IMG/VR virus record: IMGVR_UViG_3300011013_003310
Coordinates: 1 to 33,967 of that record
DNA length: 33,967 nucleotides
Source of the DNA: a virus
Reading direction: 5' to 3' (one strand)
The notes under the pieces were generated by a model, which did no database searches, had not been told where the DNA came from, and saw only the letters and a list, made by a program, of their open reading frames with translations. Position numbers and translations under genes: made by a program. This document shows, in pieces, positions 4,495-21,229 of the stretch (within the stretch, counting starts at the first letter, position 1; every line of letters begins with the position of its first letter).

Positions 4495-4805
4495 AAGTCG
4501 CCAAAGGGATCATCCTTCACTTGTTTAAACGGGCTTATTTCCATAAGGCTTTTCTTTTTGCCATTTATGAATTGTATTTGATATGGATTTTTTTTGCTCT
4601 TAGAGATTTTGTTTATATATTTAAAGAAGCAAGTGTGGCAAATTGTCTTGGGCTTAATATTATCTTTCTGTTTTATATCAAAGTATACAAGCTTCTTTCT
4701 ATCAAAAAGTATTTTGTAGTGAGGCTTAGTATATTCTAAGCCGCAACTACTGCAACAAATCTCCTTAGAGCATTTGTAAGGTCTTTTTACTGTGACCTGT
4801 ACCAT
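4491..4805 (-). CDS. Putative zinc-ribbon protein, 104 aa
   Basis: Contains two Cys pairs, CCSSCG at residues 17-22 and CHTC at about 57-60, spaced as in a zinc ribbon, with a basic, beta-rich segment between them. The C terminus is Lys-rich and then acidic. The function is unknown; such small ribbons in phages are often nucleic-acid binding or transcription-related. The start codon lies exactly 8 bases after a GTGTAA element (4814-4819) with no Shine-Dalgarno, so this may be the first, leaderless gene of its transcript. Confidence 0.68.
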   Translation of the reverse strand: MVQVTVKRPYKCSKEICCSSCGLEYTKPHYKILFDRKKLVYFDIKQKDNIKPKTICHTCFFKYINKISKSKKNPYQIQFINGKKKSLMEISPFKQVKDDPFGDL

Positions 4806-4813
4806 ACTTTAAT

Positions 4814-4819
4814 TTACAC
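4814..4819 (-). promoter_or_regulatory. GTGTAA element, 8 bases before the start at 4805
   Basis: On the minus strand the sequence reads TTTTAGAGTGTAAATTAAAGT and then ATG. The same hexamer at the same distance precedes three other minus-strand genes. No Shine-Dalgarno is present, so a -10-like element producing a leaderless message is the simplest reading. Confidence 0.5.
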
Positions 4820-4843
4820 TCTAAAAGGAGTTCTACAAAAATA

Positions 4844-5011
4844 TTATTTCACCTCCTTAATGAAAAAGTCTCCATTATTTTTCTTTTTTAAGTCTCTCAT
4901 GTATCGTTTAGCTTTTTTTAAACCTTCGTCGGTCATTTCAAAAGCTCCATAAGTAAAGTTTTGATCATTAGTTATAATGTAGCAACTTTTTTTACCTTTA
5001 ATTTTTGGCAT
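4844..5011 (-). CDS. Small basic hypothetical protein, 55 aa
   Basis: ATG at 5011-5009 to TAA at 4846-4844, beginning MPKIKGKKSCYI and ending FIKEVK. It is basic, with a helical second half (MTDEGLKKAKRYMRDLKKK). The start overlaps the stop of the upstream gene by 14 bases, which supports translation. Its last codons contain an AAGGAGGTG string, a perfect Shine-Dalgarno core, but no start codon lies at a usable distance, so this is probably chance. Function unknown. Confidence 0.6.
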   Translation of the reverse strand: MPKIKGKKSCYIITNDQNFTYGAFEMTDEGLKKAKRYMRDLKKKNNGDFFIKEVK

Positions 5012-5176
5012 CTGAATTTTCCTTTAGCATTTCTTTAACTAATTTTAAATGGTGAGTTATCCAGCCGTCACCATCAAGGGCTACATCTGAATTTTTACTG
5101 GACTCAATTTTATCGTCCGTAGAAGACTTTTCTATTATTTGATCTAACAATTCTAAAGCTTCATCAACTTTGCTCA
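4998..5176 (-). CDS. Small acidic hypothetical protein, 59 aa
   Basis: Starts at the ATG at 5176-5174 (MSKVDEALELLD). An in-frame TTG two codons earlier is possible but less likely. It has a helical N terminus, an acidic Ser/Asp middle and a second helix (HHLKLVKEMLKE). No family is recognised. It lies 33 bases after the oxygenase gene on the same strand. Confidence 0.6.
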
Positions 5177-5209
5177 TAAGCAAACATTAGTGAAACTCAA
5201 TCGAAATGT

Positions 5210-5842
5210 CTAGCCTTTTCTTGGAGAGTACTCGCCTTCCCTTACCCAAACTATGCCGATCCATTTAAATCCTTTTTCTACTGGTAGGGAGCAATGAAGG
5301 CTTTTTTCAATTGGCTTATTGTCTCTAAAATTATTCCAATAAACAGCCCTACCTTTCCTTGGGGCTATTTCAAAATTGTCCAATTTAGGAAACTGGGTTA
5401 CGCCACCTTCATAGGAATCATTTAGGTAAAATAAAACGCTAGAAACTCTTTGACCGCCTTTTGCTATATCAAGATCGTATCCTTCCCCGCCCTTTAAGAA
5501 GAAGTCGTAATGAGGAACATAGTGACCCCCTTCGGAGTATCTTACTATGTTTAAGTATTCTTGGTTTTCTACTGGCAAGCAGGTAATGTTAGAAACTATA
5601 GTCTCTATTTTTTCTATAGAGTTATATATTTTTTGTTGGGAATTATAATTTGATTTTAGTAAAAGACTTTCCTGAGCATACCTAGACTTCGTATCTTTTA
5701 TTGGCCCTTTTTCATAATCCAGAACAGTTACATCTTTTAACATAGACATAGCTTCCGCCCTTAAAAGAAGGCAATCTTCAATTGAAAGTATGCCATCGCA
5801 TACCCAAATGAAGTCGTCTACTTGAGAAAAATTATGCAGCAC
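5210..5842 (-). CDS. 2-oxoglutarate/Fe(II) oxygenase, prolyl 4-hydroxylase-like
   Basis: 210 residues. The double-stranded beta-helix core carries the Fe(II) ligands His111 and Asp113 (PHYD) and distal His183 (SLHC), plus the 2-oxoglutarate-binding Lys193 (KGFKW). GGQRVSSVLFYLND and EGGVTQFP are typical of the P4H alpha-subunit family. It would hydroxylate a protein side chain, or possibly another substrate; the target is unknown. Related oxygenases are common in marine T4-like phages. The start is a GTG at 5842-5840, since no ATG occurs before residue 33 and a stop lies just upstream. It begins 5 bases after the Cys-rich lipoprotein stop. Confidence 0.88.
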   Translation of the reverse strand: MLHNFSQVDDFIWVCDGILSIEDCLLLRAEAMSMLKDVTVLDYEKGPIKDTKSRYAQESLLLKSNYNSQQKIYNSIEKIETIVSNITCLPVENQEYLNIVRYSEGGHYVPHYDFFLKGGEGYDLDIAKGGQRVSSVLFYLNDSYEGGVTQFPKLDNFEIAPRKGRAVYWNNFRDNKPIEKSLHCSLPVEKGFKWIGIVWVREGEYSPRKG

Positions 5843-5847
5843 TGCGA

Positions 5848-5979
5848 TTATTTATCGCATATACATTCGCCTTTACAAGCGCAAACTTTATCGCAAGGAC
5901 AAGCAACACTGCCCGTACACGGCATACAAGCACAACCGACTAATGTCGCCCCCAAGATTGCAATTATTAAGTATTTCAT
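5848..5979 (-). CDS. Tiny cysteine-rich lipoprotein, 43 aa
   Basis: ATG at 5979-5977, TAA at 5850-5848. The N terminus MKYLIIAILGATLVGCAC is a short lipoprotein signal with lipobox LVGC, so Cys16 would be lipidated. The 28-residue mature part has nine Cys counting the lipidated one, in C-x-C and C-x-x-C pairs (CACMPC, CPC, CAC, CIC), suggesting several disulfides or metal binding in the envelope. It starts one base before the stop of the secreted protease gene and ends 5 bases before the oxygenase. No family is recognised; its shape resembles small envelope lipoproteins that are easily missed in annotation. Confidence 0.7.
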   Translation of the reverse strand: MKYLIIAILGATLVGCACMPCTGSVACPCDKVCACKGECICDK

Positions 5980-5980
5980 A

Positions 5981-6949
5981 TTAGTGTCTCTCCATTGTCT
6001 TTAGAAGTTGAGGCTTAGTTTTAAGGAAATCTGGGCGACCATCATTGTGCTTTTCGTATACTCTAAGCATAAATGGAAAAGCTTTTTTAGCGGCCTCTTT
6101 CTCTTCGTCCTCTACATCTTTTTTCTCTTTGGGAGTATTTTCTATGGGCATTTTCTTTAAGTCTTCTTCGTTAGGCATTTCGACTTTAGGATCTAAAGCC
6201 CACATAATTTTATGTTGTTCGCAATAATCAATAATTCTACGAACAGGCACAATAAGATTAAATCCTTCCCCAGCACCTCTGACAAGCATTCCTATATATT
6301 TAGCGTCATCCTTCAAATACACCCCACCCCCGGAACTTCCCGGAAAAGCTGTGCAAGTCGTTTGATCGAAAACATGTTTATTTAAAGACTTAATTAATCT
6401 TCCATGTTGAGAGTAGATACCGTCCGTCATGCTGTTTGCCCCCATTTGCCCAAGTAAGCTACCTACATGCAGCAAGTCTGTGCCAAGAGTTGGAATTTTA
6501 CCTTTATCTAAGTGAAAGGTAACGGTGTCATCTACAAAATTAAATTTTCTAATTCTTAGCAATGCTAAGTCATGACCGTCATCTGCATTACTGTACTTTA
6601 ATACTTCTGCATCCATTTGAAGTCTGCCTACGGTTCGTCCATTCTGACGAATCTCTTTAACGACCATAGGGTCTTTAAATTCGACAATGGTTTTCGGCGC
6701 ACCACCGACTACAGTTTTTCTTTCTTTTCTCAGGTTGTCTATAACGTGTGCCGCAGTCCAAACAAAATTTACTTTATTACCTTTTGAATCTTTTCGGGAG
6801 AAGATAACCCCTGAGCCTTCGCCATTAGACCACTGGCCTTCTGATCTGATAGTTACAGAAACATTTTGTAAGTGTTCTGCGGTAGAAAGTTTTTCTGCTC
6901 CAACCAAGAAACAAGCAGAAAGAAGAAGAGATAGTAGGATAGTTTTCAT
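5981..6949 (-). CDS. Secreted trypsin-like serine protease
   Basis: 322 residues. A signal peptide covers residues 1-18 (cleavage likely after VGA); a lipobox-like LSAC at 10-13 is an alternative but very close to the N terminus. The chymotrypsin-fold catalytic triad is His68 (WTAAHV), Asp127 (GHDLAL) and Ser206 (FPGSSGGG). No PDZ domain follows; the C-terminal 80 residues are charged (EEDLKK, EDEEKEAAKK). It probably acts in the periplasm or on the cell surface, on host or phage envelope proteins. It has its own likely start: a GTGTAA element 21 bases upstream and an AGAGGAAAAC Shine-Dalgarno. The Cys-rich lipoprotein gene begins at its stop. Confidence 0.9.
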   Translation of the reverse strand: MKTILLSLLLSACFLVGAEKLSTAEHLQNVSVTIRSEGQWSNGEGSGVIFSRKDSKGNKVNFVWTAAHVIDNLRKERKTVVGGAPKTIVEFKDPMVVKEIRQNGRTVGRLQMDAEVLKYSNADDGHDLALLRIRKFNFVDDTVTFHLDKGKIPTLGTDLLHVGSLLGQMGANSMTDGIYSQHGRLIKSLNKHVFDQTTCTAFPGSSGGGVYLKDDAKYIGMLVRGAGEGFNLIVPVRRIIDYCEQHKIMWALDPKVEMPNEEDLKKMPIENTPKEKKDVEDEEKEAAKKAFPFMLRVYEKHNDGRPDFLKTKPQLLKTMERH

Positions 6950-6970
6950 TGTAGTTTTCCTCTATCAAAT

Positions 6971-6976
6971 TTACAC
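6971..6976 (-). promoter_or_regulatory. GTGTAA element upstream of the protease gene
   Basis: The minus strand reads AAAAGGGGTGTAAATTTGATA, then an AGAGGA Shine-Dalgarno, with the ATG 21 bases after the hexamer. This gene has a Shine-Dalgarno and correspondingly a longer leader, unlike the copies at 8 bases. Confidence 0.45.
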
Positions 6977-7004
6977 CCCTTTTAGGGCGAAAAATAGCCA
7001 AAAA

Positions 7005-7439
7005 CTACTTTAATCCAGTATATTCTGAAGAAGATCTTATTTTTTCCCCAAGTCCGTCCACTATTTTAATGCCTAAATTGTGGCAAACTGGGCCTTCTGG
7101 GATCTCGTCGGAGGATCTGTCGCCGCCCTTGGCGAAAATATCTGGCCTTAAAAAGGCTAAACTCAGAGTTACTGTTTCGTCCACATCAAGCGCCTTGAAA
7201 ACATCGTCAACCATATTTAGGGAACTTACTATTTTTATCCTGTCCTCGACGGGCATAAACGATTTCCCCTTTTTCAGCTTGGCTTGTTTATCGTTATTGA
7301 CTACGACAATTAATTTATCTCCAAGAGCCCTAGCTTTCTCAAGGTACTCTATATGACCCACATGAATAGGATCAAAATATCCACTAGCCACAACAACAGT
7401 ATTTATCCCAAGGGGCTTAAAGTCTTGATCGTTTTTCAT
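7005..7439 (-). CDS. Cytidylyltransferase-fold nucleotidyltransferase, HldE C-terminal/TagD-like
   Basis: 144 residues from the ATG at 7439-7437. A longer frame would run backwards into tRNA-Val and gives the familiar tRNA artefact VRIPHRLP. Motifs: SGYFDPIHVGHIEYL (HxGH at 26-29, nucleotide binding), ALGDKLIVVVNND, PVEDRIKIVSSL, FAKGGDR, and a final RSSSEY (the ISSS-type motif). Overall order and the AKGGD segment resemble the adenylyltransferase half of HldE (D-beta-D-heptose 1-phosphate adenylyltransferase) more than glycerol-3-phosphate cytidylyltransferase, but TagD-like activity cannot be excluded. It could activate the heptose made by the enzymes at 32534-33967. It follows tRNA-Val with a 6-base gap. 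Confidence 0.85.
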   Translation of the reverse strand: MKNDQDFKPLGINTVVVASGYFDPIHVGHIEYLEKARALGDKLIVVVNNDKQAKLKKGKSFMPVEDRIKIVSSLNMVDDVFKALDVDETVTLSLAFLRPDIFAKGGDRSSDEIPEGPVCHNLGIKIVDGLGEKIRSSSEYTGLK

Positions 7440-7445
7440 TTTATT

Positions 7446-7520
7446 TGGTAGGCGGTGAGGGATTCGAACCCCCGACAACCTCGGTGTAAACGAGACACTC
7501 TACCACTGAGTTAACCGCCC
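7446..7520 (-). tRNA. tRNA-Val (UAC anticodon)
   Basis: 75 bases with encoded CCA. Acceptor GGGCGGT/ACCGCCT (G-U at 1-72), U8, A9, D-stem ACTC/GAGT, anticodon stem TCTCG/CGAGG around loop TTTACAC, T-arm GGGGG-TTCGAAT-CCCTC and A73. The anticodon is UAC, reading GUA. The 5' end overlaps the last 10 bases of the upstream gene's reading frame, and the 3' end is 6 bases from the next start codon. Confidence 0.93.
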
Positions 7521-7768
7521 AAATTATCCCTCCAAACTACAAGGCTCATAGCTATGTTTTTTGGATCTATTGCTTTTTTTATTAAAAGGTTAGAACACTT
7601 TTCTAGCTCATAGGCTAAATTGCAGCAATCTTCATTATTTTTTATTTTAGATTTTTGCAAAAGATTTACATAATCACTAAAGTTAGCAAACGCCACCTCC
7701 CAAGGAACTTGGGGGTCAGAAACGTTTTCCAAGAAAACTCTTTGGTACTCTAATGTTTCATTTTTCAC
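7511..7768 (-). CDS. Hypothetical protein, 85 aa
   Basis: Begins MKNETLEYQRVFLENV; contains a CCNLAYELEKCSN helix, and the rest is mostly helical and soluble. I recognise no family. It starts 2 bases after the dUTPase stop, and its own stop and last codons overlap the 5' end of tRNA-Val by 10 bases, so mRNA and tRNA maturation compete for the same precursor. Confidence 0.7.
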   Translation of the reverse strand: MKNETLEYQRVFLENVSDPQVPWEVAFANFSDYVNLLQKSKIKNNEDCCNLAYELEKCSNLLIKKAIDPKNIAMSLVVWRDNLGG

Positions 7769-7770
7769 TT

Positions 7771-8193
7771 TTATTCACCTGAGCTTCCAAACCCTCCGTC
7801 GCCCCTCTCACTTTCAGGTATATCTTCTGCATCAATAAACTCTGCATAGTGACAGGTTTCAAATATTATCTGAGCAATTCTATCGCCTTCTGATATGTCT
7901 ATGGGCTTATCCCCTAAGTTGATAAGAACAACTCCGATTTCTCCTCTGTAGCTACTATCAATCACTCCAGCCATAACGTCTAGACCTTTTTTTACTGCCA
8001 AGCCACTTCTTGGGGCGACTCTGCCATAGAAGCCAGCGGGAATAGCAAAAGCAAGCCCCGTTCTAACAACTCTTCTTTCACCTACTTTTATGTGGTGGTC
8101 TTCAATTGAAGACAAATCATAACCTGCATCAGCATAGTTAGCGGTTGTTGGTAGCTTGGCTTTTTCCGATAGTGTTTTTGTTATAATATCCAT
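7771..8193 (-). CDS. dut: Trimeric dUTPase
   Basis: 140 residues with all five dUTPase motifs: ADAGYDL (1), PRSGLAVKKG (2), GVIDSSYRGEIGVVLIN (3, with catalytic Asp and uracil-binding Tyr), GDRIAQIIF (4) and the C-terminal RGDGGFGSSGE arm (5). It hydrolyses dUTP to dUMP and diphosphate, keeping uracil out of DNA and supplying dUMP. It sits 2 bases after the HNH gene. A second, degenerate relative is at 11590-12006. Confidence 0.97.
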   Translation of the reverse strand: MDIITKTLSEKAKLPTTANYADAGYDLSSIEDHHIKVGERRVVRTGLAFAIPAGFYGRVAPRSGLAVKKGLDVMAGVIDSSYRGEIGVVLINLGDKPIDISEGDRIAQIIFETCHYAEFIDAEDIPESERGDGGFGSSGE

Positions 8194-8195
8194 TT

Positions 8196-8807
8196 TTACT
8201 TAGGCGGCGTTACTTTAAATCCATGATGTATTAAGACTTCGGCGCAAAGATCTACAAATTCTCCAGTAGACATATCAGCTTTTGCTACATTTGCATCTCT
8301 GCAAGCAAGACCAAGGTTATCTAATTCATTAGATCCGCCTTTGGAAACTGGGTGAATGTGGTCTAAATGGTACTCTTCTTTTTTTGCAAGGTCTACATTT
8401 CTACCCGTTAGGTAACATATTGGGTCTTCGCCAACTTTATTTAAGAAATCCTTAACCCCAAAATTTTTTTTGCATCTATTTCTTCTGATCCCGTCATTAG
8501 CTCTTGATTTATACATTTGAACCTTTCTCTGTTGAGGAGAATGTTTGTTTGTCTGCTTTTTCTTTTTTTCTTTTTTGAGTTTGTAAGATAAAGCGCGATC
8601 AACAGAATGGAAAAAGTTGCCTATCTTTCCGTACAAAATCCCTGCAACGGTTTTCCTCAAAATCTTGTTTCTCTTCATGATTTTAGGTTTCGTTGATGAA
8701 TTGCAGTAGTATGCAATTGTGGACTTTGAGCAATTTAATTTTTTAGCTATTTTGCTGTAAGAGAAACCTTTCTTTCTGAGTTTTAAAATTTGCTCTTTTA
8801 GTTTCAT
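8196..8807 (-). CDS. HNH endonuclease with N-terminal helix-turn-helix
   Basis: 203 residues. Residues 1-40 form a resolvase-like helix-turn-helix (KGFSYSKIAKKLNCSKSTIA). The middle is strongly basic (LKKEKKKKQ), and the HNH domain is C-terminal: CYLTGR at 131-136, HLDHIHPVSKGG at 147-158 and NLGLACRDAN at 164-173. The zinc-finger Cys pairs of some HNH enzymes are incomplete. It is probably a free-standing homing-type or nicking endonuclease. Its ATG lies 2 bases after the CCA end of tRNA-Arg, with no room for a Shine-Dalgarno outside the tRNA. Confidence 0.88.
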   Translation of the reverse strand: MKLKEQILKLRKKGFSYSKIAKKLNCSKSTIAYYCNSSTKPKIMKRNKILRKTVAGILYGKIGNFFHSVDRALSYKLKKEKKKKQTNKHSPQQRKVQMYKSRANDGIRRNRCKKNFGVKDFLNKVGEDPICYLTGRNVDLAKKEEYHLDHIHPVSKGGSNELDNLGLACRDANVAKADMSTGEFVDLCAEVLIHHGFKVTPPK

Positions 8808-8809
8808 AT

Positions 8810-8886
8810 TGGTACGCCCAGAGGGATTCGAACCCCCGACCCCAAGTTTAGAAGACTCGTGCTCTATCCAACTGAGCTATGGGCGC
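8810..8886 (-). tRNA. tRNA-Arg (UCU anticodon)
   Basis: 77 bases with encoded CCA. Acceptor GCGCCCA/TGGGCGT, U8, A9, D-stem GCTC/GAGC, anticodon stem CGAGT/ACTTG with loop CTTCTAA, T-arm GGGGG-TTCGAAT-CCCTC and A73. It reads AGA. It begins 5 bases after the dehydrogenase stop and ends 2 bases before the HNH start codon. Confidence 0.93.
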
Positions 8887-8891
8887 AAAAA

Positions 8892-9761
8892 TCAGACGAC
8901 TGCGCGGCCTTTATCTTGGAGCCAATCAAGGTCAGTTCTATCTACTGTATTGTTTCTTCTTATTGCCGCCTCTACTAAAATAGACGCACTGCTGTTTGAG
9001 TTCATTTGATGTTGAGCCGAGTTCATGTCTTTAGGAAAGCAAGTACCGCCGAAGCCACCTTTTCCATCTGGGCCGGGAACTTTAGTGTGACTTTCCCCAA
9101 CTCTCTCATCTAAAACTATAAGCTCTCTTGCAGATTCATAATTTACACCTACAGCTTCAGAAAACTTGCTCATTTCGTTGAAGAAAGAAACCTTGGTTGC
9201 AAGGAAGCAATTCCTAGCCAGCTTACAAAGTTCGGCAGTGCTAGTGTCTGAAGAATGAATCGATGGTGAATCTTTTATTTTCCCTTCCTTGTGAGAAGCT
9301 TTTAGTATCTGCTTCATTATTTGCGGGAAATTCTTATCTTTTAAATCTGAAGAACCAACTATCCAGTCTTTGTTTTCAAAAAAATCTTGCCTCCAATTTT
9401 TCTCAGTCAAAAACTCAGGCATAAAGTTTACCCCATGTTTTTTACAGAAGCCGACAGGGACAGTTGACCTAACTACAATGTATGGAGTGTCTTTAAGATC
9501 TTGAAGATCTTTGACCACTGACTCCACAATGTCGGTGTGACACTGACCATTATGTTTCATTGGAGTTGGGACGCATACAAATACAATATTGCAATGTCTC
9601 AACTGGCTGAACTCAAAACCTTGTGGGCGGCATTTGCTTGGATCTAAATCGTAAACCACTACTTCAGTTAGTGACGATTCAAGCAAGGCTGTGGCGCTGC
9701 CGACATAGCCTCCCCCTACAATCCCTATCCTTACTTTATCTATAGGCTTTAAGTACTGCAT
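8892..9761 (-). CDS. Short UDP-glucose/GDP-mannose dehydrogenase-family protein
   Basis: 289 residues against about 390-450 in the family. The N-terminal Rossmann domain (RIGIVGGGYVGSATALL, residues 11-27) and VCVPTP at 62-67 bind NAD, VRSTVPVG lies at 97-104, and the central helical domain ends with the catalytic loop GGFGGTCFPKDM (Cys241). The C-terminal UDP-binding domain is missing: the protein stops about 48 residues after the catalytic Cys. The enzyme oxidises UDP-glucose or a related NDP-sugar to the uronic acid. It could work as a shortened form, need a partner, or be decaying. The ATG follows a terminator-like hairpin by 5 bases. Confidence 0.85.
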   Translation of the reverse strand: MQYLKPIDKVRIGIVGGGYVGSATALLESSLTEVVVYDLDPSKCRPQGFEFSQLRHCNIVFVCVPTPMKHNGQCHTDIVESVVKDLQDLKDTPYIVVRSTVPVGFCKKHGVNFMPEFLTEKNWRQDFFENKDWIVGSSDLKDKNFPQIMKQILKASHKEGKIKDSPSIHSSDTSTAELCKLARNCFLATKVSFFNEMSKFSEAVGVNYESARELIVLDERVGESHTKVPGPDGKGGFGGTCFPKDMNSAQHQMNSNSSASILVEAAIRRNNTVDRTDLDWLQDKGRAVV

Positions 9762-9791
9762 AAATTTTAAAAACCCCCATTTTCATGGGGG
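9761..9791 (-). terminator. Intrinsic terminator-like hairpin directly before the dehydrogenase start
   Basis: On the minus strand, CCCCCAT (9791-9785) pairs with ATGGGGG (9780-9774) around a GAAA tetraloop, followed by TTTTTAAAATTT and then the ATG at 9761. It lies 6 bases after the stop of the Lys/Ala-rich gene. Confidence 0.8.
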
Positions 9792-9797
9792 AGTGTT

Positions 9798-10115: not shown

Positions 10116-10400
10116 TTATTTTTTTATAAAAGTAGAGTTTTCATAAATTGCATCAGCAAAATTCCTGACGGTTTTTATTTTTTCGAAATCAAATTTTTCG
10201 TTATTAATACTTATGGAATGAATCTCCTCCATGTCCATCATTAAATCAATAGCATCCAAGGAATCTAGGCTAAGTGTCGAGAGTTCCGTATCAAGATTTA
10301 TATTAGCGTCAGCCACGACAACTACATCCTCTATTGCCTCTATAACTATCTTATAAACTTCTTCTCTACCTTTGTGAACAGATATAGAATCGTAATCCAT
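10116..10400 (-). CDS. acpP: Acyl carrier protein
   Basis: 94 residues, acidic and helical, with the phosphopantetheine site LSLDSLDAIDLMMDMEE (residues 43-59; Ser47 modified). Helix III and the length fit a type II acyl carrier protein with a short extra C terminus (NSTFIKK). It carries acyl groups as thioesters in the cytoplasm. The holo-ACP synthase gene lies two genes upstream in the same transcript, so the phage appears to make and activate its own carrier. No ketosynthase or acyltransferase is visible, so the acyl chain's fate is unknown; lipid or glycan acylation, or a non-fatty-acid role as in aminoacyl carriers, are options. Confidence 0.9.
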   Translation of the reverse strand: MDYDSISVHKGREEVYKIVIEAIEDVVVVADANINLDTELSTLSLDSLDAIDLMMDMEEIHSISINNEKFDFEKIKTVRNFADAIYENSTFIKK

Positions 10401-10402
10401 TT

Positions 10403-10630
10403 TTATATCTCCAATTCAAATTTTACGCATAGCTCCTTGTAAAAATCTTTATGCTCATCTTTTACGTTGGGCCAACCAATTTTTAGCAAGTGCTGAACAA
10501 AGGCGAGTTTATAAAATGGCAAAATACTAATGTCAAACTTTATTTTGCTATTCGTTAAGTGAGTCATTAAGAAAACTATAACGCTAAGTTCTTCCTCGCT
10601 TAACGAGTTGATCTTATGCTTGTAAATCAT
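10403..10630 (-). CDS. Hypothetical protein between acpS and ACP genes, 75 aa
   Basis: Helical, soluble, no recognised family: begins MIYKHKINSLSEEELSVIVF. It overlaps the end of acpS by 17 bases and stops 2 bases before the ACP start, so the three genes form a unit. Involvement with the carrier protein is suggested only by position. Confidence 0.65.
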   Translation of the reverse strand: MIYKHKINSLSEEELSVIVFLMTHLTNSKIKFDISILPFYKLAFVQHLLKIGWPNVKDEHKDFYKELCVKFELEI

Positions 10631-10991
10631 TTCCTTCAGCTATGCATGTCGCCGCAGCGTAATCTTCTGAATGAGATATAGATAAAAAGAATTTAAGCTC
10701 ATAATGTATTTTTTGGTCTTTGAATAAAACGTAAGGCTTTCCTCTGGGACTGTTTATTATTTCTACATCCAAAAAATTAAACACCTTAAAACTTGTATCA
10801 GTTAACGACTTAATCGCCGCCTCTTTCGCGGCCCACTTGCCAGCAATACTTTCTTTAGAGTTGAGCTTATTGAGGCAGTAATCTTTTTCCCTCTCTGTTA
10901 GTACTTTATCTAGAAACTTTTCTCCGTGCTTGTCGAGCATCCTAGATACTTGGAGAATGCTTTGAACGTCTATTCCAAGCCCCGCTATCAT
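10614..10991 (-). CDS. acpS: Holo-acyl-carrier-protein synthase
   Basis: 125 residues. The two metal/CoA-binding motifs are present: GLGIDVQ at 4-10 (Asp8) and GKWAAKEAAIKSL at 51-63 (Glu57, Lys61). LSISHSEDYAAATCIAE near the C terminus is typical of AcpS. The enzyme moves 4'-phosphopantetheine from CoA to Ser of apo-ACP, acting as a trimer in the cytoplasm. Its start overlaps the upstream stop by 4 bases. The matching carrier is at 10116-10400. Confidence 0.93.
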   Translation of the reverse strand: MIAGLGIDVQSILQVSRMLDKHGEKFLDKVLTEREKDYCLNKLNSKESIAGKWAAKEAAIKSLTDTSFKVFNFLDVEIINSPRGKPYVLFKDQKIHYELKFFLSISHSEDYAAATCIAEGNDLQA

Positions 10992-13234: not shown

Positions 13235-13263
13235 TTGAAATAAAAAATTAAATTAACTATAAT
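13235..13263 (+). promoter_or_regulatory. Consensus sigma-70 promoter for the dNMP kinase gene
   Basis: TTGAAA (13235-13240), 17-base spacer, TATAAT (13258-13263), then only 7 bases to the ATG at 13271. Transcription should begin at or next to the A of the start codon, giving a leaderless message; there is no Shine-Dalgarno. Confidence 0.8.
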
Positions 13264-13270: not shown

Positions 13271-13924
13271 ATGGCTAAAAAGTTCTTCATAGGTATAGGA
13301 GGGGTTGCAGGATGTGGAAAAGATACTTTCTATAGGATTTCGAAAGAAATCCTCGAAGACGAATACCCCGAACTAAACGTCCAAAGACTTTCTTTGGCTG
13401 ACCATTTAAAAGACGATCTCAAAGATTTTATTGTAGAAAAACTTGATATTGACCCGACTGAATGCACTAGAACAGAGAAAGATAAGATTAGACCTCTGCT
13501 AGTTGCTTACGCAAAGGTTAAAAGAGAAACTTCCTACGGAAGATATTGGATTGAAAAAGTAGAAGATTATATAAAAACTTTATCTACTTCAAAAAAGACT
13601 TTATTTATAATAACCGACCTTAGATTTAGTTATTATGAAAAAGATGAAACTTACTGGGTTCAAGAACAGAAAAAGGGAGTAGTTATTCATTTGAGTAGAT
13701 TTGACAATGAAATAAACAGCGAGGGCGAGAAAATTAAAAACGTAATAGGGCCAGCTAACGAAGAAGAGCGTATGCATGACCCTTTAGTTAAGGTTAGGGC
13801 TGATTATAAGTTCCAATTCCCCACTCTCAACGTAAACGACGACCAATTTCTCAATAATTTAAAACCGAAAGTTAAAAGCGCTTTAAATAAAATTAAAAAA
13901 GACCACGGACATTTTTTTAAATGA
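13271..13924 (+). CDS. P-loop deoxynucleoside monophosphate kinase-like protein
   Basis: 217 residues. A Walker A loop, GVAGCGKDT, lies at residues 11-19. It is followed by RLSLADHLKDDLKDF (substrate-side helices), a lid-like TRTEKDKIRP...YGRYW segment, and IITDLRFSYYEKDE as the central strand. This arrangement and the GKDT loop resemble the phage dNMP kinase family of T4 gp1. It would phosphorylate dNMPs in the cytoplasm for DNA synthesis. It is first in its transcript, behind a consensus promoter. Another P-loop nucleotide kinase is possible. Confidence 0.82.
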   Translation: MAKKFFIGIGGVAGCGKDTFYRISKEILEDEYPELNVQRLSLADHLKDDLKDFIVEKLDIDPTECTRTEKDKIRPLLVAYAKVKRETSYGRYWIEKVEDYIKTLSTSKKTLFIITDLRFSYYEKDETYWVQEQKKGVVIHLSRFDNEINSEGEKIKNVIGPANEEERMHDPLVKVRADYKFQFPTLNVNDDQFLNNLKPKVKSALNKIKKDHGHFFK

Positions 13925-15786: not shown

Positions 15787-18255
15787 ATGAATAAAGACTC
15801 TCAAGTAATACACGTTAAGAAGAGGAACGGAAGACTCCAAGAACTAAACATAGATAAAATAAACCATTGCGCTTCTTGGGCTTGTAATGAGCTAGAGAAT
15901 GTTTCTGCAAGCGAGGTAGTACTAGATGCCCATGTACAAATTTACGATAAAATAACCACCGATGACATAGATAAAGCTCTCATAATGAGTGCTAGGCAAA
16001 AAATTGAAAAAGAGCCTAATTATTCATATGTAGCAGCAAGACTTTTACTCTCTTCTATATGTAAAGAAGTCTTTGGTGAAAGCGTAGATAAAGATATATA
16101 TGACAACCAATACAAGCTCTCTTTTGTAAGAAACACAAAAAAACTAGTAAAGGAAGACATCCTAGACAAGAGGCTTCTTGATTTTGATCTTAAGATGCTC
16201 TCGGAACATATCGACTCTAATCGAGATTTAAACTTTAAATATCTCGGCCTACAAATATTAGCTGATCGATACCTTCACCACATAGATGGAAGAATAATGG
16301 AAACCCCTCAAGCCTTTTGGATGAGAGTATCTATGGGGTTAGCTATAAACGAAGAAAACAAAAATGAAAAAGCTATTGAGTTTTATGATACGTTGTCTCA
16401 GTTTTATCTGTGTTGCTCTACTCCTACCCTTTTTAATAGCGGTAGTACTCACAGTCAGCTTTCCAGTTGTTATCTTAATACTTTTGACGACTCAATTGAT
16501 GGAATTTTTGAAGGTCTGTGGCAAGAAGCTAGAAAGTCCAAGTTTGCTGGAGGGCTAGGTTTTGATGTCTCAAATTTCAGAGCAGCAAACTCTTATGTAA
16601 AAGGCACTAACGGTAAATCATCTGGATTAATTCCTTGGCTTAAAATATACAACGATACGCTTATTGCCGTGGATCAAGGAGGCAAAAGACCCGGAGCAGG
16701 TTGTGCTTACCTTGAGCCTTGGCATTTGGACATAGAAGATTTTCTTGATTTAAAAAAGAATACCGGAGACGAGCGCAGAAGATGTCACGATATGAATACT
16801 GCAAATTGGCTCCCAGATCTTTTCATTAGAAAAGTTCAATCAGATGAAGACTGGTACTTATTCTCTCCATCGGATACCCGTGATCTTCACGAGCTTTACG
16901 GAGACAAGTTTGATAAAAGATATAAAAAATACTGCAAACTTGCAGACAGCGGAGAACTTGAAAACCATAAAGTCATAAAAGCTAAAGATCTCTGGAAGAG
17001 AATGCTAAGAGTTCTTTTCGAAACTGGACACCCTTGGATGACTTTTAAGGATAACGCCAATTTCCGTTACTCTAACTCGCATGAAGGTGTAGTTCATAGC
17101 TCAAACCTATGCACTGAAATCTTTCTTCATACTAAACCTTCTAGATTTTTAGAAGGGGAAAAAACCGAAGTTGGCGAAACAGCAGTATGTAACCTAAGTT
17201 CTGTAAATTTAAAACAGCACATTAAAGACAACGGAGAGTTAGACTTTGATAGACTAGCTAAAACAATTGAGGTTCAAATGCGTATGCTTGACAACGTTAT
17301 TGACCTTAACTTCTACCCAACTCAAGAAGCTAAAAAATCGAACCTAAAACACAGACCAGTGGGGGCTGGAAGTATGGGTTGGGCTGATGTGTTTCACTCT
17401 TACAAGGTGAATTTCTCAAGCGACGATGCTGTGAAGTTTTCAGACGAGCTTTATGAGTTCATATCTTATCACTGCATACTTAACTCTGCCAAGCTATCTA
17501 AAGAGCGTGGAGCTTACTCCACATATGACGGGTCTCTTTGGAGCCAAGATATTCTACCAATTGACACATATAAAAGCCTCATGGATTACCTTGATCAAAA
17601 GCCGATACTCCATAGAGGTAAAAAGTTTTGTCCAGAAGTAGACTGGAAACAATTAAGAAGCCACATAAAAGATCATGGAATGCGTAATAGCAACACTATG
17701 GCAATTGCTCCAACTGCTACTATTTCATACATACAAGGATGCTCTCCCTGTATTGAGCCAGACTTCTCGGTCTTATTTGTTTATGAAAATAAAAGCGGCA
17801 ATTTAACTATTGTAAATGAATGGTTTATCAAAGAATGCAAAGAAAGAGGTATCTGGAATCAAGCGCTTATAGAAGCTATAAAATCTGTTGATGGAGATTT
17901 ATCTTTATTAAATGGAGATATCCCAGAGGACTTAAAACAAAGATACTCAACTTGCTTTGAAAGAGATCAGTTTAAGCTAATCGATTCAGCGGCGGCGAAA
18001 CAGAAGTGGATAGACATGGGTCAATCTTTGAACCTGTTCAACAAAGAAACCTCTTTAAAATACTTGAATGATTTATACATTCATGCGAGAAATAGAGGTC
18101 TAAAAAGCACATATTATCTAAGAAATTTATCTGCCAGCAAAATAGAAAAATCTACGAATACGCCAATGCAGGAAATAGAAAGCAAGCATGAGGCCATAGG
18201 AGAAATGGCTAAAGCTTGTAGTATACTAGATCCAACATGCGAAAGCTGTCAGTAA
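15787..18255 (+). CDS. nrdA: Ribonucleotide reductase class I, large subunit
   Basis: 822 residues. An ATP-cone occupies about residues 5-95 (VIHVKKRNGRLQELNIDK), so dATP feedback is likely retained. The ten-stranded barrel includes CSTPTLFNSGS and SSCYLNT (redox Cys), SNLCTEIF (Asn-x-Cys-x-Glu active site with the thiyl Cys) and AVCNLSSVNL (second redox Cys). MAIAPTATISYIQGCSP is the phosphate loop. The C terminus CESCQ is the shuttle Cys pair reduced by thioredoxin or glutaredoxin. It reduces NDPs to dNDPs in complex with the small subunit 15 bases downstream. Confidence 0.97.
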   Translation: MNKDSQVIHVKKRNGRLQELNIDKINHCASWACNELENVSASEVVLDAHVQIYDKITTDDIDKALIMSARQKIEKEPNYSYVAARLLLSSICKEVFGESVDKDIYDNQYKLSFVRNTKKLVKEDILDKRLLDFDLKMLSEHIDSNRDLNFKYLGLQILADRYLHHIDGRIMETPQAFWMRVSMGLAINEENKNEKAIEFYDTLSQFYLCCSTPTLFNSGSTHSQLSSCYLNTFDDSIDGIFEGLWQEARKSKFAGGLGFDVSNFRAANSYVKGTNGKSSGLIPWLKIYNDTLIAVDQGGKRPGAGCAYLEPWHLDIEDFLDLKKNTGDERRRCHDMNTANWLPDLFIRKVQSDEDWYLFSPSDTRDLHELYGDKFDKRYKKYCKLADSGELENHKVIKAKDLWKRMLRVLFETGHPWMTFKDNANFRYSNSHEGVVHSSNLCTEIFLHTKPSRFLEGEKTEVGETAVCNLSSVNLKQHIKDNGELDFDRLAKTIEVQMRMLDNVIDLNFYPTQEAKKSNLKHRPVGAGSMGWADVFHSYKVNFSSDDAVKFSDELYEFISYHCILNSAKLSKERGAYSTYDGSLWSQDILPIDTYKSLMDYLDQKPILHRGKKFCPEVDWKQLRSHIKDHGMRNSNTMAIAPTATISYIQGCSPCIEPDFSVLFVYENKSGNLTIVNEWFIKECKERGIWNQALIEAIKSVDGDLSLLNGDIPEDLKQRYSTCFERDQFKLIDSAAAKQKWIDMGQSLNLFNKETSLKYLNDLYIHARNRGLKSTYYLRNLSASKIEKSTNTPMQEIESKHEAIGEMAKACSILDPTCESCQ

Positions 18256-18270
18256 TACAAAGGATGGAAA

Positions 18271-19281
18271 ATGAGTAAAACAGGATTATTATTAGATGAA
18301 AACACGACGGGAGTTAATCAGATTCTCCCACATAAACACAAATTTGCTTGGGATCTTTTTCAAAAAGGCGTAGCAAATAATTGGTCGCCATCCGAAATTA
18401 ATATGTCGGATGATGTAAAACAATGGAAAGGAGACGATCTCTCTAAAGATGAAAAGCTACTCGTTAAAAGATGTCTTGGTTTTTTTGCTGGAAGTGAGTC
18501 CTTGGTTGGTAATAATTTATTACTTAATGTCGCAAAATGGATAACAGACGCTGAGTGTGGCCAGTACATAATGAGGCAAGCATACGAAGAGTCCCTACAC
18601 AACTGGACAGTCGTAACTTGCTGCGATAGCTACTCTTTAAAAATATCTGAGGTTTACGAAGCCTATGTCAACATACCTTCAATTAAGGCGAAGGATGATT
18701 TCCTAATGAGCATAACCTCTGACATCAACAGACAAGATTTCAGTACTAAGACTTTAGAGGGAAAAAGAGAGTTTCTGAGAAATTTGATTACCTATTATAT
18801 CGTTTGTGAGGGAACCTTTTTCTTTAGTGGATTCGCTATGCTTCTAGCCCTTGGCAGACAAAATAAACTGCCCGGACTTTCTGATCAAATTAGATATACT
18901 CTTAGAGACGAGAGCTTGCATATCCAATTTGGTACGTATTTAATAAATACGATTAAAGAACAGTATCCATCGGTGTGGACAAAAAAGTTCGAGGAAGAAA
19001 CCACTGAGCATATTAAAAAAGCCGTAGAGCTTGAAATTCAATATGCCCACGATGTTCTTCCACGAGGAATTCTTGGCTTAAACGCTGAGATGTTTGTTGA
19101 TTACATGCGATATATCGGCAACAGACGGCTTGAAGGAATTGGAATTGAGTTTTCTTTTGAGAACGCTCAGAACCCTTTCCCTTGGCTGTCAGAAGTAGTT
19201 GATACCGCAGCTATGACAAACTTCTTTGAGCGCAAGGTTAAAGATTATCAGAACTCTGGAGTTTTAGAGGATGATTTTTAG
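18271..19281 (+). CDS. nrdB: Ribonucleotide reductase class I, small (radical) subunit, class Ic-like
   Basis: 336 residues. Metal ligands are Glu76 (GSESLV), Glu107 and His110 (ESLH), Glu180 (CEGTFFF), Glu214 and His217 (RDESLH). Spacing equals that of the Chlamydia enzyme (31, 73, 34). The residue four after the first His ligand, tyrosine in standard R2 and Phe in Chlamydia, is Val114 (codon 18610-18612), and ligand 1 is Glu instead of Asp. Both point to a tyrosine-free, probably Mn/Fe class Ic cofactor. Trp38 and Asp213 of the radical-transfer path are kept. An AAAGGATGG Shine-Dalgarno precedes the ATG. Confidence 0.95.
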   Translation: MSKTGLLLDENTTGVNQILPHKHKFAWDLFQKGVANNWSPSEINMSDDVKQWKGDDLSKDEKLLVKRCLGFFAGSESLVGNNLLLNVAKWITDAECGQYIMRQAYEESLHNWTVVTCCDSYSLKISEVYEAYVNIPSIKAKDDFLMSITSDINRQDFSTKTLEGKREFLRNLITYYIVCEGTFFFSGFAMLLALGRQNKLPGLSDQIRYTLRDESLHIQFGTYLINTIKEQYPSVWTKKFEEETTEHIKKAVELEIQYAHDVLPRGILGLNAEMFVDYMRYIGNRRLEGIGIEFSFENAQNPFPWLSEVVDTAAMTNFFERKVKDYQNSGVLEDDF

Positions 19282-19467
19282 GAGAATCCCTAAGAATACA
19301 ATATTTAAAACAATAGAGAACCAAAGAAAGGCGGTAAGCAAAAACTTACCGTCTATTTTTTTCTTTATTTTAAAATATTCCGATTTTGAAATGACTTTTC
19401 TTTCAGCCATCTCAGACCCAGAAACATCCCAGCAATCACCATCCTTGCATATTAGCCATTTTTTCAT
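19264..19467 (-). CDS. Small C-terminally anchored membrane protein, 67 aa
   Basis: The N-terminal 40 residues are soluble and charged (MKKWLICKDGDCWDVSGSEM), with one hydrophobic helix at about 43-66 (LLTAFLWFSIVLNIVFLGILL). It overlaps the end of nrdB tail to tail by 18 bases. No family is recognised. It starts 2 bases after the stop of the next gene upstream. Confidence 0.6.
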   Translation of the reverse strand: MKKWLICKDGDCWDVSGSEMAERKVISKSEYFKIKKKIDGKFLLTAFLWFSIVLNIVFLGILLKIIL

Positions 19468-19469
19468 GT

Positions 19470-19673
19470 CTAATCCTCTTTTTCTGGTATGAAAAATTTA
19501 GTTCTTCTATCCCTAATGAACCCTTCACTCAATAGGTAATCCATTATGGATTGTATTTCTTTTTCTGCTATGCATTTAGAATTATTGTATATAAAAACCG
19601 TATCGTGTTTCCAATAACCGTCCTCACATAAGCAAACTTTTATTTTGTATCCATTTAAACTAAGAATTTGCAT
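19470..19673 (-). CDS. Hypothetical protein, 67 aa
   Basis: Soluble, mixed alpha/beta, beginning MQILSLNGYKIKVCLCEDG, with a helical middle (EKEIQSIMDYLLSEGF) and a basic end (RDRRTKFF). No family is recognised. The ATG lies exactly 8 bases after a GTGTAA element and has no Shine-Dalgarno. Confidence 0.62.
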   Translation of the reverse strand: MQILSLNGYKIKVCLCEDGYWKHDTVFIYNNSKCIAEKEIQSIMDYLLSEGFIRDRRTKFFIPEKED

Positions 19674-19681
19674 GTATTTAT

Positions 19682-19687
19682 TTACAC
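19682..19687 (-). promoter_or_regulatory. GTGTAA element, 8 bases before the start at 19673
   Basis: Minus strand GATAGTGTAAATAAATAC then ATG. The element overlaps the stop codon of the signal peptidase gene, so the downstream pair of genes could be expressed separately from it. Confidence 0.48.
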
Positions 19688-20172
19688 TATCGCTGATTAA
19701 CCAACATTGCGATTATGTGCTTCTCTTTGATAATGCCGTACCAAGTATGATTCCTGTTATCGCCAATAATGTAATACTCGTTATACTTTAACTTTATTTC
19801 CTTTGTATCTAAGTAATAAATACTATCTCTTGTAAGCATTATTCTTTCTTTATTTTTTTCTTCTAGTTTTCTTCCGTCTACATAAATAAATCCATTTTTT
19901 ATCATTATTCTTTCATTTGGAAGGCCAACCACCCTTTTTATTAAGTGATCTGAATTGTTATTAGGGTCATCGGTTACGATTACATCTCCCCTATCAGGCG
20001 AAACTATTTTGCAATAAATACTATTAACAAAAACCTTAGTTCCATCCTTTAAAGTCGGATTCATACTATCCCCATCTACCTCATAAAACTCAAAACCAGA
20101 GAAGAAAACAGCCCAAAAAAGCAGCAAAGCCCCCAATAGTCTTACTTTTTTATTTAATGTAAAAATACGCAT
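19687..20172 (-). CDS. lepB: Signal peptidase I-like protein
   Basis: 161 residues. An N-terminal hydrophobic helix at about 12-27 anchors it in the inner membrane. Family boxes: GDSMNPTL with nucleophile Ser36, HLIKRVVGLPNE with general-base Lys79, and YIIGDNRNHTW near the C terminus (usual GDNRxxSxDSR; the second half is altered). It would cleave signal peptides of secreted proteins. Possible clients in this window are the protease at 5981-6949 and other exported phage proteins; the lipoproteins would use signal peptidase II. The ATG is exactly 8 bases after a GTGTAA element. Confidence 0.88.
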   Translation of the reverse strand: MRIFTLNKKVRLLGALLLFWAVFFSGFEFYEVDGDSMNPTLKDGTKVFVNSIYCKIVSPDRGDVIVTDDPNNNSDHLIKRVVGLPNERIMIKNGFIYVDGRKLEEKNKERIMLTRDSIYYLDTKEIKLKYNEYYIIGDNRNHTWYGIIKEKHIIAMLVNQR

Positions 20173-20180
20173 ACATATGC

Positions 20181-20186
20181 TTACAC
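20181..20186 (-). promoter_or_regulatory. GTGTAA element, 8 bases before the signal peptidase start
   Basis: Minus strand GAAAAGTGTAAGCATATGT then ATG. It forms the left arm of a palindrome (TTACAC-TTTTC-GTGTAA) with the plus-strand copy at 20192. Confidence 0.5.
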
Positions 20187-20191
20187 TTTTC

Positions 20192-20197
20192 GTGTAA
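20192..20197 (+). promoter_or_regulatory. GTGTAA element for the plus-strand gene at 20226
   Basis: CTTTTCGTGTAAATATAAAC on the plus strand, 28 bases before the ATG, which has a strong Shine-Dalgarno. It is the right arm of the divergent palindrome. Confidence 0.48.
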
Positions 20198-20205
20198 ATA
20201 TAAAC

Positions 20206-20218
20206 GCCTCAAGGAGGC
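20206..20218 (+). promoter_or_regulatory. Shine-Dalgarno enclosed in a small hairpin
   Basis: GCCTC (20206-20210) can pair with GAGGC (20214-20218), covering the AAGGAGG ribosome-binding site of the gene starting at 20226. This may damp or regulate translation. Confidence 0.45.
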
Positions 20219-20225
20219 AATTGTT

Positions 20226-20540
20226 ATGAGACATAAGAACAAAAAAAGCAACTCCGAGATGTCATGGGCTAGTAAGATCGACGTTTGGATTAAATCCAAA
20301 TGGGGATCTATCTCAAAATGGATTGCGTCCAAGTCCCCTGAGATGAAACAGGTTAAAAACTGGATCATTAAGGGAAAAGACTGGATCATGAAAGCAGTAA
20401 AATGCCCAGATTGTAGACTAGGGGGAGTCTTGATCTTGTTTGGAGCCTTAGTTGCTACCAAAATGATCGACCCTTGGATGTCTGTAGCGATGTTAGCTTG
20501 GTTAAAAGCTGCATCATTAATAATCAAACCTCATAGATAA
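20226..20540 (+). CDS. Small Lys/Trp-rich membrane protein, 104 aa
   Basis: The N-terminal 60 residues are basic and Trp-rich with amphipathic repeats (WIKSKWGSISKWIASK, WIIKGKDWIMK). Then comes CPDCRLGG and one or two hydrophobic helices at about 65-100 (GGVLILFGALVATKMI, WMSVAMLAWLKAASLII). The amphipathic-plus-hydrophobic design would suit a holin or other membrane-active phage protein, but no family is recognised. It has a strong AAGGAGG and a terminator 13 bases after its stop. Confidence 0.68.
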   Translation: MRHKNKKSNSEMSWASKIDVWIKSKWGSISKWIASKSPEMKQVKNWIIKGKDWIMKAVKCPDCRLGGVLILFGALVATKMIDPWMSVAMLAWLKAASLIIKPHR

Positions 20541-20552
20541 AACCTAGTTTTT

Positions 20553-20580
20553 CCCCCTCTTTCCCAGAGGGGGTTTTTTT
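20553..20580 (+). terminator. Intrinsic terminator after the gene at 20226-20540
   Basis: CCCCCTCT (20553-20560) pairs with AGAGGGGG (20566-20573) around TTCCC, followed by seven T. The T run merges directly into the next GTGTAA element. Confidence 0.9.
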
Positions 20581-20586
20581 GTGTAA
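20581..20586 (+). promoter_or_regulatory. GTGTAA element for the plus-strand gene at 20609
   Basis: TTTTTTTGTGTAACTAATATT directly after the terminator T run, 22 bases before the ATG, with an AGAAGGAA Shine-Dalgarno between. A promoter is needed here because the terminator cuts off upstream transcription. Confidence 0.5.
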
Positions 20587-20608
20587 CTAATATTAGAAGG
20601 AAATACAT

Positions 20609-20902
20609 ATGGAGATTGATTTTCAATTTTTCTTTAACGTAGTAGTAGGTCTTTTAACCTTTTTTGTCGGTTGGGTCTTTAAGGTAACTTACGCAGCTAT
20701 AAAAGATATGCGAACGGAGTTAGAACACCTTAAAGAGATAACAGACCAAGAGCAGGACAAGCTATGGGCAGAACACAACAAACTAGCTCTTTCATTACCT
20801 GATAAATATATGGGTAAAGATGATTTCAGGGAGTTTGCCCAAGCAATTAATCATAGATTTGATAGATTAGAGCAAAAAATAGACAACCTAGGCTCTAAAT
20901 AA
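20609..20902 (+). CDS. Membrane-anchored coiled-coil phage protein, 97 aa
   Basis: An N-terminal hydrophobic helix at about 7-26 (FFFNVVVGLLTFFVGWVF), then a soluble helical part with heptads (DMRTELEHLKEITDQEQDKL, INHRFDRLEQKIDNLG) and LPDKYMGKDDFREF between. Proteins of this layout are very common in marine tailed phages and are thought to be lysis- or tail-associated, but the function is not settled. Its end overlaps the convergent gene by 8 bases. Confidence 0.75.
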   Translation: MEIDFQFFFNVVVGLLTFFVGWVFKVTYAAIKDMRTELEHLKEITDQEQDKLWAEHNKLALSLPDKYMGKDDFREFAQAINHRFDRLEQKIDNLGSK

Positions 20903-21215
20903 ACCTGTTCATACTTTTTATCTGCCCTAATATATTAAGGGTATTTTCACAGGCTATTCTATCGACTTTTATTGTCATGGGGTAATTTAACTCTTGATCT
21001 ATCCTTATGCCTTCTAGTCTATGCTCTGGATACACAAAATCGTCCACGTAATCAAACCATCCGTGAGATTTTAAAATAGAATAATATTGATCCACCTCTT
21101 CTTTTTTGGACTCAATAAGAATATCCATGTCCAATTCTGTCTTGGACATCATAGAAATATAGCGAAAGAAAAGACCGTCATTGCAAGTTAGGCTTGATAT
21201 GACAATCAAGTTCAT
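20895..21215 (-). CDS. Hypothetical protein, 106 aa
   Basis: Soluble alpha/beta protein beginning MNLIVISSLTCNDGL and containing TELDMDILIESKKEEVDQYY and LEGIRIDQELN, which faintly recalls a small nucleotidyltransferase or HAD-type fold, but no catalytic set can be assigned. A single gene on the minus strand between two plus-strand units, with a GTGTAA element exactly 8 bases before its ATG and no Shine-Dalgarno. Confidence 0.6.
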   Translation of the reverse strand: MNLIVISSLTCNDGLFFRYISMMSKTELDMDILIESKKEEVDQYYSILKSHGWFDYVDDFVYPEHRLEGIRIDQELNYPMTIKVDRIACENTLNILGQIKSMNRFI

Positions 21216-21223
21216 ATATAGTT

Positions 21224-21229
21224 TTACAC
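21224..21229 (-). promoter_or_regulatory. GTGTAA element, 8 bases before the start at 21215
   Basis: Minus strand CATTTTAAAGTGTAAAACTATAT then ATG. The upstream flank overlaps the first codon of the plus-strand glycan operon, so the two transcripts are divergent with overlapping 5' regions. Confidence 0.5.

Follow-up and report, generated by a model that had tools for sequence, protein, structure and literature searches.

The DNA analysed here is the entire IMG/VR virus record IMGVR_UViG_3300011013_003310 (33,967 bases, hereafter the window), which most likely represents only part of a larger phage genome, as its relatives reach 200 kb. The window contains ribonucleotide reductase (RNR) genes, a dCMP-deaminase family gene, a sigma-70 family gene and three transfer RNAs (tRNAs), and the subject of this work is a hexamer, GTGTAA, that stands at a set distance before several of its start codons. 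Among 50,697 annotated phage records, the best matches to its small RNR subunit are only about 43% identical, and the phage therefore has no close cultured relative; many uncultured relatives can be found in IMG/VR. A host scan in one genome collection gave two metagenome bins, labelled Woesebacteria (71% identity) and Gammaproteobacteria (45%), matches that are too weak for naming a host.

The arrangement GTGTAA-N8-ATG occurs in the window exactly four times, always on the minus strand (4803-4819, 19671-19687, 20170-20186 and 21213-21229), as a preliminary description of this DNA had reported, and in 100 dinucleotide shuffles it occurs 0.16 times on average and never reaches four. The hexamer alone is not enriched (11 observed versus 13.7 expected), and the signal is therefore positional. 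By eye the four starts lack a Shine-Dalgarno, and three other copies stand 21, 28 and 22 bases before an ATG, each with a Shine-Dalgarno-like stretch, both as described earlier. The copy said to lie inside an open reading frame (ORF) does so as well; the earlier list was right in what it contained and missed three of the 11 copies (4010-4015, 27406-27411 and 7484-7489). The first box in Table 1 heads a minus-strand run of overlapping genes extending from 4805 to 1396, of which the last is the sigma-70 gene, and relatives of the 104-residue protein that opens this run carry the box at the identical distance (in L005, L008, L104 and L108). Two of the boxes, at 20181 and 20192, form a divergent pair with 5 bases between them.

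Table 1. Putative promoter elements of the window and the genes discussed with them (aa, amino acids).
Feature	Position	Strand	Remarks
GTGTAA box	4814..4819	-	ends 8 bases before ATG at 4805
GTGTAA box	19682..19687	-	ends 8 bases before ATG at 19673 (67-aa ORF); kept in L010
GTGTAA box	20181..20186	-	ends 8 bases before ATG at 20172 (signal-peptidase S26 gene); kept in L010
GTGTAA box	21224..21229	-	ends 8 bases before ATG at 21215 (106-aa protein); kept in L010, L034, L087
GTGTAA box	6971..6976	-	21 bases before ATG at 6949 (trypsin-like protease); predicted leader opens GAGGAAA, a Shine-Dalgarno at +1
GTGTAA box	20192..20197	+	28 bases before ATG at 20226; AAGGAGG within predicted leader
GTGTAA box	20581..20586	+	22 bases before ATG at 20609; predicted leader opens AGAAGGA
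GTGTAA copy	4010-4015	-	inside ORF
GTGTAA copy	9143-9148		inside ORF
GTGTAA copy	27406-27411	+	inside ORF
GTGTAA copy	7484-7489	+	within tRNA-Val gene on opposite strand
104-aa protein	4491..4805	-	no PHROG match; predicted leaderless
Sigma-70 family factor, type A (regions 2, 3, 4)	1396..2244	-	GTG start, strong Shine-Dalgarno AAGGAGGTGA
Sigma-70-like promoter TTGAAA-17-TATAAT	13235..13263	+	7 bases before ATG at 13271

Relatives were collected from IMG/VR with three queries, namely the small RNR subunit (80 contigs kept of 359) and two types of phage sigma factor described below, B (80 of 193) and C (80 of at least 581). The first 90 sequences comprised 85 loci from relatives, the window itself and four window pieces, and had 2717 distinct ATG starts; in them no other pairing of hexamer and position is as position-specific as GTGTAA 8 bases before the ATG (58 occurrences versus 2.1). 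The preliminary description had proposed enrichment at 8 bases across the genome as a check, and this was found in the relatives: GTGTAA-N8-ATG outnumbers its reversed pattern 70 to 7 in 26 long records, 24 of them positive, and 42 to 10 in 17 further records, 16 of them positive. Across 7752 distinct starts the counts of GTGTAA at gaps 0 to 13 are 1, 0, 1, 1, 6, 1, 11, 6, 137, 60, 47, 58, 31 and 23, that is, 137 at gap 8 versus 27 summed over gaps 0-7 and a mean of about 11 at other gaps. The genes at gap 8 fall into 59 protein families (57 by another clustering), and gaps 0-7 hold 0 to 6 families each. A count that is free of gene calls gives the same picture, with an ATG at offset 8 for 102 of 686 distinct GTGTAA sites and 4 to 28 at each of the other offsets from 0 to 39. 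As controls, phage Peetri, whose small RNR subunit is 42.7% identical, has three GTGTAA copies within 45 bases of 257 starts in 150 of its 200 kb, with none at gap 8, and 50 kb of T4 (86 starts) has none near starts.

With the A of the ATG as +1, the box at gap 8 spans -14 to -9; positions -8 to -6 hold a weaker T(T/A)A and position -1 a pyrimidine. The box is strict: changes at positions 1-5 leave 0-2 sites at gap 8, and at position 6 only GTGTAT (19 sites) survives well. No conserved -35 element and no second strongly conserved element was found between -50 and -16 in 78 gap-8 sites, and the TTTT-rich flank noted in the preliminary description reduces to a mild A/T bias. The base before the ATG is a pyrimidine in 128 of 137 gap-8 starts versus 3848 of 7752 starts overall, and this initiator tends to be kept relative to the box where the ATG lies further away. 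A pyrimidine at box +8 is found in 69% of 124 sites at gaps 14-26 and in 57% of 150 sites at gaps 10-13, and a purine at box +9 in 85% and 82% of them, respectively; the share with both is weaker at gaps 9 (0.40) and 10 (0.33, 45 sites), with a background of 0.23, and by single gap it ranges from 0.20 (gap 26, 5 sites) to 0.83 (gap 18, 12 sites). Among the 33 sites at gaps 17-26 that have a Shine-Dalgarno-like tetramer, the first such tetramer opens at box +9 or +10 in 17, and in the window the Shine-Dalgarno opens the predicted transcript behind the boxes at 6971 and 20581. The gap distribution has a sharp lower edge at 8 with a tail above it, as expected of a limit set by the start site, because the transcript must contain the ATG. 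These features argue strongly for a promoter-like element with leaderless geometry throughout the clade, and what had been proposed for the window, a -10-like element that sets the start about one turn downstream, with messages that are leaderless at gap 8 and carry a leader and Shine-Dalgarno at larger gaps, is borne out by the sequences of the relatives. Boxes are also found in divergent pairs, TTACAC-N14-17-GTGTAA, of which there are 34 (19 at spacing 15), or 28 (14 at spacing 15) after stricter deduplication, and one convergent pair at the same spacings. In L200, L205 and L206 such pairs have an ATG at gap 8 on both sides. Many of the pairs at spacing 15 have similar flanks and may represent one conserved region; the pair in the window has a spacing of 5.

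A second class of promoter, here termed class 1, was found in the same phages. It has the form TTGAC(A/T)-17-TAnnnT, with its first T peaking 35 bases before the ATG, TAnnnT spanning -12 to -7 and, in 81% of the 54 sites with TTGAC at that place, a pyrimidine at -1. Its geometry is that of a sigma-70 promoter starting at the A of the ATG, so that the early-type promoters of these phages, which the preliminary description had not considered, look leaderless too, and leaderless geometry is therefore not special to the late class. The window has an element of this kind (Table 1), which is a looser match than the TTGAC rule that defines class 1. Contigs obtained with the sigma C query (80) are dense in GTGTAA (197 sites at gaps 8-20, 1562 new starts) and sparse in TTGACA, whereas in those obtained with the sigma B query (80) TTGACA is strong and GTGTAA is present, less densely. 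When hexamers were ranked after thinning to one start per family (1426 families), only the two promoter classes stood out, TTGAC slightly above GTGTAA; the remaining signals were a weaker TATAAT and a modest Shine-Dalgarno, and no third promoter class was found among these hexamers.

The genes behind each class can be compared by PHROG scans, for which long representatives of distinct clusters were chosen by us: 30 genes behind GTGTAA or GTGTAT (20 of 28 long GTGTAA clusters and 10 of 49 clusters of a second listing) and 10 genes behind class 1 promoters (from 24 long clusters of that class). A named function was returned for 11 of the 30 and none for the other 19. Four of the named products belong to the virion: a tail sheath, a tail fibre and two structural proteins, one of which was named from lower-ranked matches. 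Of the other seven, two are proteases or ClpB-like ATPases, two are PhoH, and there is one each of a kinase, a ferredoxin-labelled family and a starvation-type regulator. Among the unnamed is a 683-residue protein that resembles the portal of phage G (20.8% identity over half its length, E 2e-8) and has the box at gaps 8-22 in 41 starts of the sigma C query set. Six of the 10 class 1 genes are named (RIIA, RIIB, DnaB helicase, DNA ligase, an endonuclease and a clamp loader), and no structural protein is among them. Furthermore, nrdB is in class 1 in eight starts, nrdA is found in both classes, and one type A and one extracytoplasmic function (ECF)-like sigma gene carry class 1 promoters. On these small numbers, the split is likely to be one of early replication genes versus virion and other genes.

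Candidate readers of the box can be sought among the sigma factors. Sigma region 2 (PF04542, all types together) was found in 23 of 27 records, in up to three copies, and a profile of type B reveals a B in two of the four Pfam-negative records (G023 and G024, via L087 and L066). Four types can be told apart: A, which is full length and includes the factor of the window; B, with about 200 residues; C, about 240 residues with a cysteine-rich insert; and D, which is ECF-like. When eight B and C proteins were compared with the region 2 profile, six were above the cut-off, one B was below it and one B had no match; as a possible region 4, B and C have a C-terminal helix-turn-helix-like segment in models and alignments, with no Pfam match. 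One B and one C protein used as tblastn queries had no match in the 50,697 phage records. The predicted folds of B and C have a mean predicted local distance difference test score of 83 and 74 and a predicted template-modelling (TM) score of 0.49 for both, the model of C being built on 7 sequences, and the PDB matches listed by Foldseek are sigma factors by title or length, with low TM-scores (0.11-0.45) and high root-mean-square deviations. In the seven records of at least 136 kb that were read through, C is present in 7, B in 6 and A in 5, and each record has at least two phage sigma genes; one region 2 match, at 19.8 kb in G001, falls outside the A, B and C assignments. With gaps of up to 25 allowed, the nearest upstream promoter on the same strand is class 1 in all 54 resolved cases for B (137 cases in all) and GTGTAA in 49 of 50 for C (99 cases in all), and of the 13 type A cases 3 have a class 1 promoter, 5 have GTGTAA and 5 lack a resolved promoter; the counts are not independent, because loci and contigs overlap.

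The type A sigma factor of the window was considered as the reader of the box and is not favoured. G001 and G002 have the motif, and no type A was found in them. In the type A proteins inspected, region 4 has also retained a motif of the sigma-70 kind (VTRERIRQIE or close), which presumably reads TTGACA, and type A is disfavoured for this reason as well; the sigma factor that the window encodes is probably not the GTGTAA reader. Two further observations concern the other types. The cysteine-rich insert of C lies between its two sigma parts in the alignment and is perhaps a metal site (L111:3796-4464, L121:14772-15554 and L096:16215-16958). ECF-like sigma factors are found in some of the phages (L104:8353-8955, L102:2228-2827 and L168:2123-2743), and the one in L104 has a class 1 promoter at the leaderless distance.

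The explanation we favour, with a probability of roughly three in four, is that GTGTAA is the core of a sigma-switched, leaderless phage late promoter, which is T4-like in build and not a member of the T4 type. Host RNA polymerase carrying a phage sigma factor would open the DNA at GTGTAA and start at the purine 9 bases after the box. With the ATG 8 bases after the box, its A would be +1 and the message would be leaderless; gaps of 9-13 would give leaders of 1-5 bases, and gaps near 21-28 a short leader that would often open with a Shine-Dalgarno. Early genes would use the sigma-70-like class 1 promoter, with a start also at the ATG. In the simplest order of events, host sigma-70 would make B early, B would turn on the GTGTAA genes, including C, and C would add feedback or a further step. 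We infer from the promoters of the sigma genes that an early phage sigma factor reads GTGTAA, with B favoured over C; the main alternative is that C reads GTGTAA, with feedback on itself. Both the phage-sigma reading and the late reading are likely on the sequence data, and the phage-modified polymerase specificity suggested in the preliminary description is made plausible, short of proof, by the phage sigma factors in 23 of 27 records and by the second, sigma-70-like class.

Several findings weigh against this explanation. A Shine-Dalgarno is absent at 136 of the 137 gap-8 sites, an absence that is partly automatic, as the box fills the Shine-Dalgarno position. The virion proteins make up only 4 of the 11 named GTGTAA products, and GTGTAA also precedes PhoH, a kinase, the ferredoxin-labelled family and, in some relatives, nrdA; with the box found before genes of other kinds too, 'late' may stand for 'middle and late'. 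The two classes cluster along the genome in G001 (p 0.0005), G002 (0.0015), G006 (0.025) and G007 (0.036), which is only 4 of 11 records (p 0.18-0.88 in the other 7), on maps that omit about 16-19 kb each of G001, G003, G005 and G008. Lastly, G005 (158 kb) has the GTGTAA motif without an assigned type B, and as C is present in all seven long records, presence alone favours C over B.

Known phage systems offer partial parallels. In SPO1, an early phage sigma factor switches the host polymerase to a new promoter class, the promoters of which have -35 and -10 boxes; sigma switching would be the likeness, whereas no -35 is found here, and the one B and one C protein searched are unmatched in the 50,697 phage records. 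The late promoters of T4 consist of one 8-bp box that precedes the start by about one turn, with no -35 conservation (PMC2988020), and have the consensus TATAAATA (PMC3184105; these and the other sources cited were available in part). The promoters studied here likewise have one box and no -35, about one turn before a start that is judged from the initiator. With the A of the ATG as +1, TGTAAT(T/A)A fills -13 to -6, which is where TATAAATA lies (T at -13; PMC2988020). They differ in having an invariant G at -14 and -12; GTGTA is invariant, and the sites depart from the TATAAATA consensus. T4 late boxes also lie 14-28 bases before the ATG (12 of 12 in 50 kb) and give leaders, whereas the gap-8 boxes would not. 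The gp55 family (phrog_234) was found in none of 12 clade records, with T4 itself scoring 2.5e-70, and profile comparison of sigma B or C with gp55 gave no match. Given the different consensus and the lack of a gp55 match in those 12 records, the promoter is not T4-type by membership, though it may work like one.

The late promoters of phiKZ (TATG) and AR9 (AACA-6N-TA/G) also have a short box with the start a few bases on, and are read by phage multisubunit RNA polymerases (PMC5312081). The short box with a nearby start is shared; however, a cellular-type RNA polymerase subunit (PF04998) was found in 0 of 27 records, with 14 of 14 controls positive, although very diverged phage subunits could be missed by this search. 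Searches of the 27 records with the profile of the single-subunit T7-type polymerase (PF00940) and for the T4 major capsid gave no match, and neither did their controls. AR9 leaders are 26-491 nucleotides long, and the same source remarks that phage transcripts are often leaderless, so that leaderless phage transcripts as such are already known (PMC5312081). Ma-LMM01, a Microcystis phage that is likewise from freshwater, has successive early, middle and late gene classes, but the promoters of all three resemble host sigma-70 and, in the part of the source available, no phage-specific motif was found (PMC5780444). The motif is not described in the titles and abstract openings of the papers listed on GTGTAA promoters, leaderless phage late genes, T4-like late promoters and marine phage sigma factors, with subscription journals outside this scope.

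Other explanations of the box must be weighed against a phage sigma factor. One possibility, which we consider unlikely, is a promoter with a host reader: an alternative sigma factor of the host, or its sigma-70 aided by a phage activator. A(-11) is the key position of TATAAT, and the box has a T at the equivalent position and stands without a -35; in addition, the seven long records each carry their own sigma genes. In favour of a host reader, a Pfam sigma was not seen in 4 of the 27 records, though the B profile reduces these to two, and an activator route is exemplified by the middle promoters of T4 (in the available part of PMC5780444). It is quite improbable that the box is the operator of a phage regulator overlapping an ordinary promoter. 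The excess of divergent over convergent pairs would suit an operator, but such a site would fix neither the distance to the start codon nor the initiator, and the -50 to -16 region of the 78 gap-8 sites holds no second strongly conserved element. More doubtful still is a role at the RNA level, in which GTGTAA would bind the ribosome or otherwise signal translation from its place 8 bases ahead of the start codon. The fixed spacing does resemble that of a Shine-Dalgarno, in whose place the box stands. However, the gap distribution is one-sided, with a tail at 9-24, the initiator is fixed to the box and not to the ATG, and some boxes have a separate Shine-Dalgarno downstream. To our knowledge, GTGTAA also does not match the usual anti-Shine-Dalgarno. 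Finally, chance as the source of the four-fold coincidence, for which one could cite the lack of over-representation of the hexamer itself in the window, is rejected by the shuffles, the hexamer ranking, the gap histogram and the 17 further records, and its probability is negligible.

If GTGTAA is indeed a leaderless late promoter, leaderless messages for virion genes would pose a testable question on how phages take over translation. From DNA alone, this work yields a consensus for the promoter, predictions of where transcripts start and candidate sigma factors for a large phage group without a close cultured relative, and this allows early and late genes to be proposed in hundreds of metagenomic contigs. 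A broader proposal, to which we would give even odds, is that a lineage of large water phages, widespread in nature, has dispensed with 5' leaders for many promoter-proximal genes in both classes, early promoters of the host type and late promoters read by a phage sigma factor being alike set to start at the A of the ATG, and the switch being made by orphan sigma factors, B and C, that lie outside the described phage sigma families. Translation late in infection would in that case depend largely on leaderless initiation, which might favour the messages of the phage over those of the host.

Some other genes of the window can be mentioned. A long plus-strand gene run occupies 21236-33821, and by eye several of its products resemble glycosyltransferases or sugar enzymes; the one ORF from this run that was scanned had no PHROG match. 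Defence models, run on five window proteins, gave weak matches in one, the trypsin-like protease encoded at 5981-6949 behind the box with a predicted leader, which weakly matches the LmuA model. The gene at 19687-20172, behind a gap-8 box, encodes a phage signal peptidase (PF10502, S26). A 4'-phosphopantetheinyl transferase (PF01648) is encoded at 10116-10991, and an ORF near it resembles, in our reading, an acyl carrier protein.

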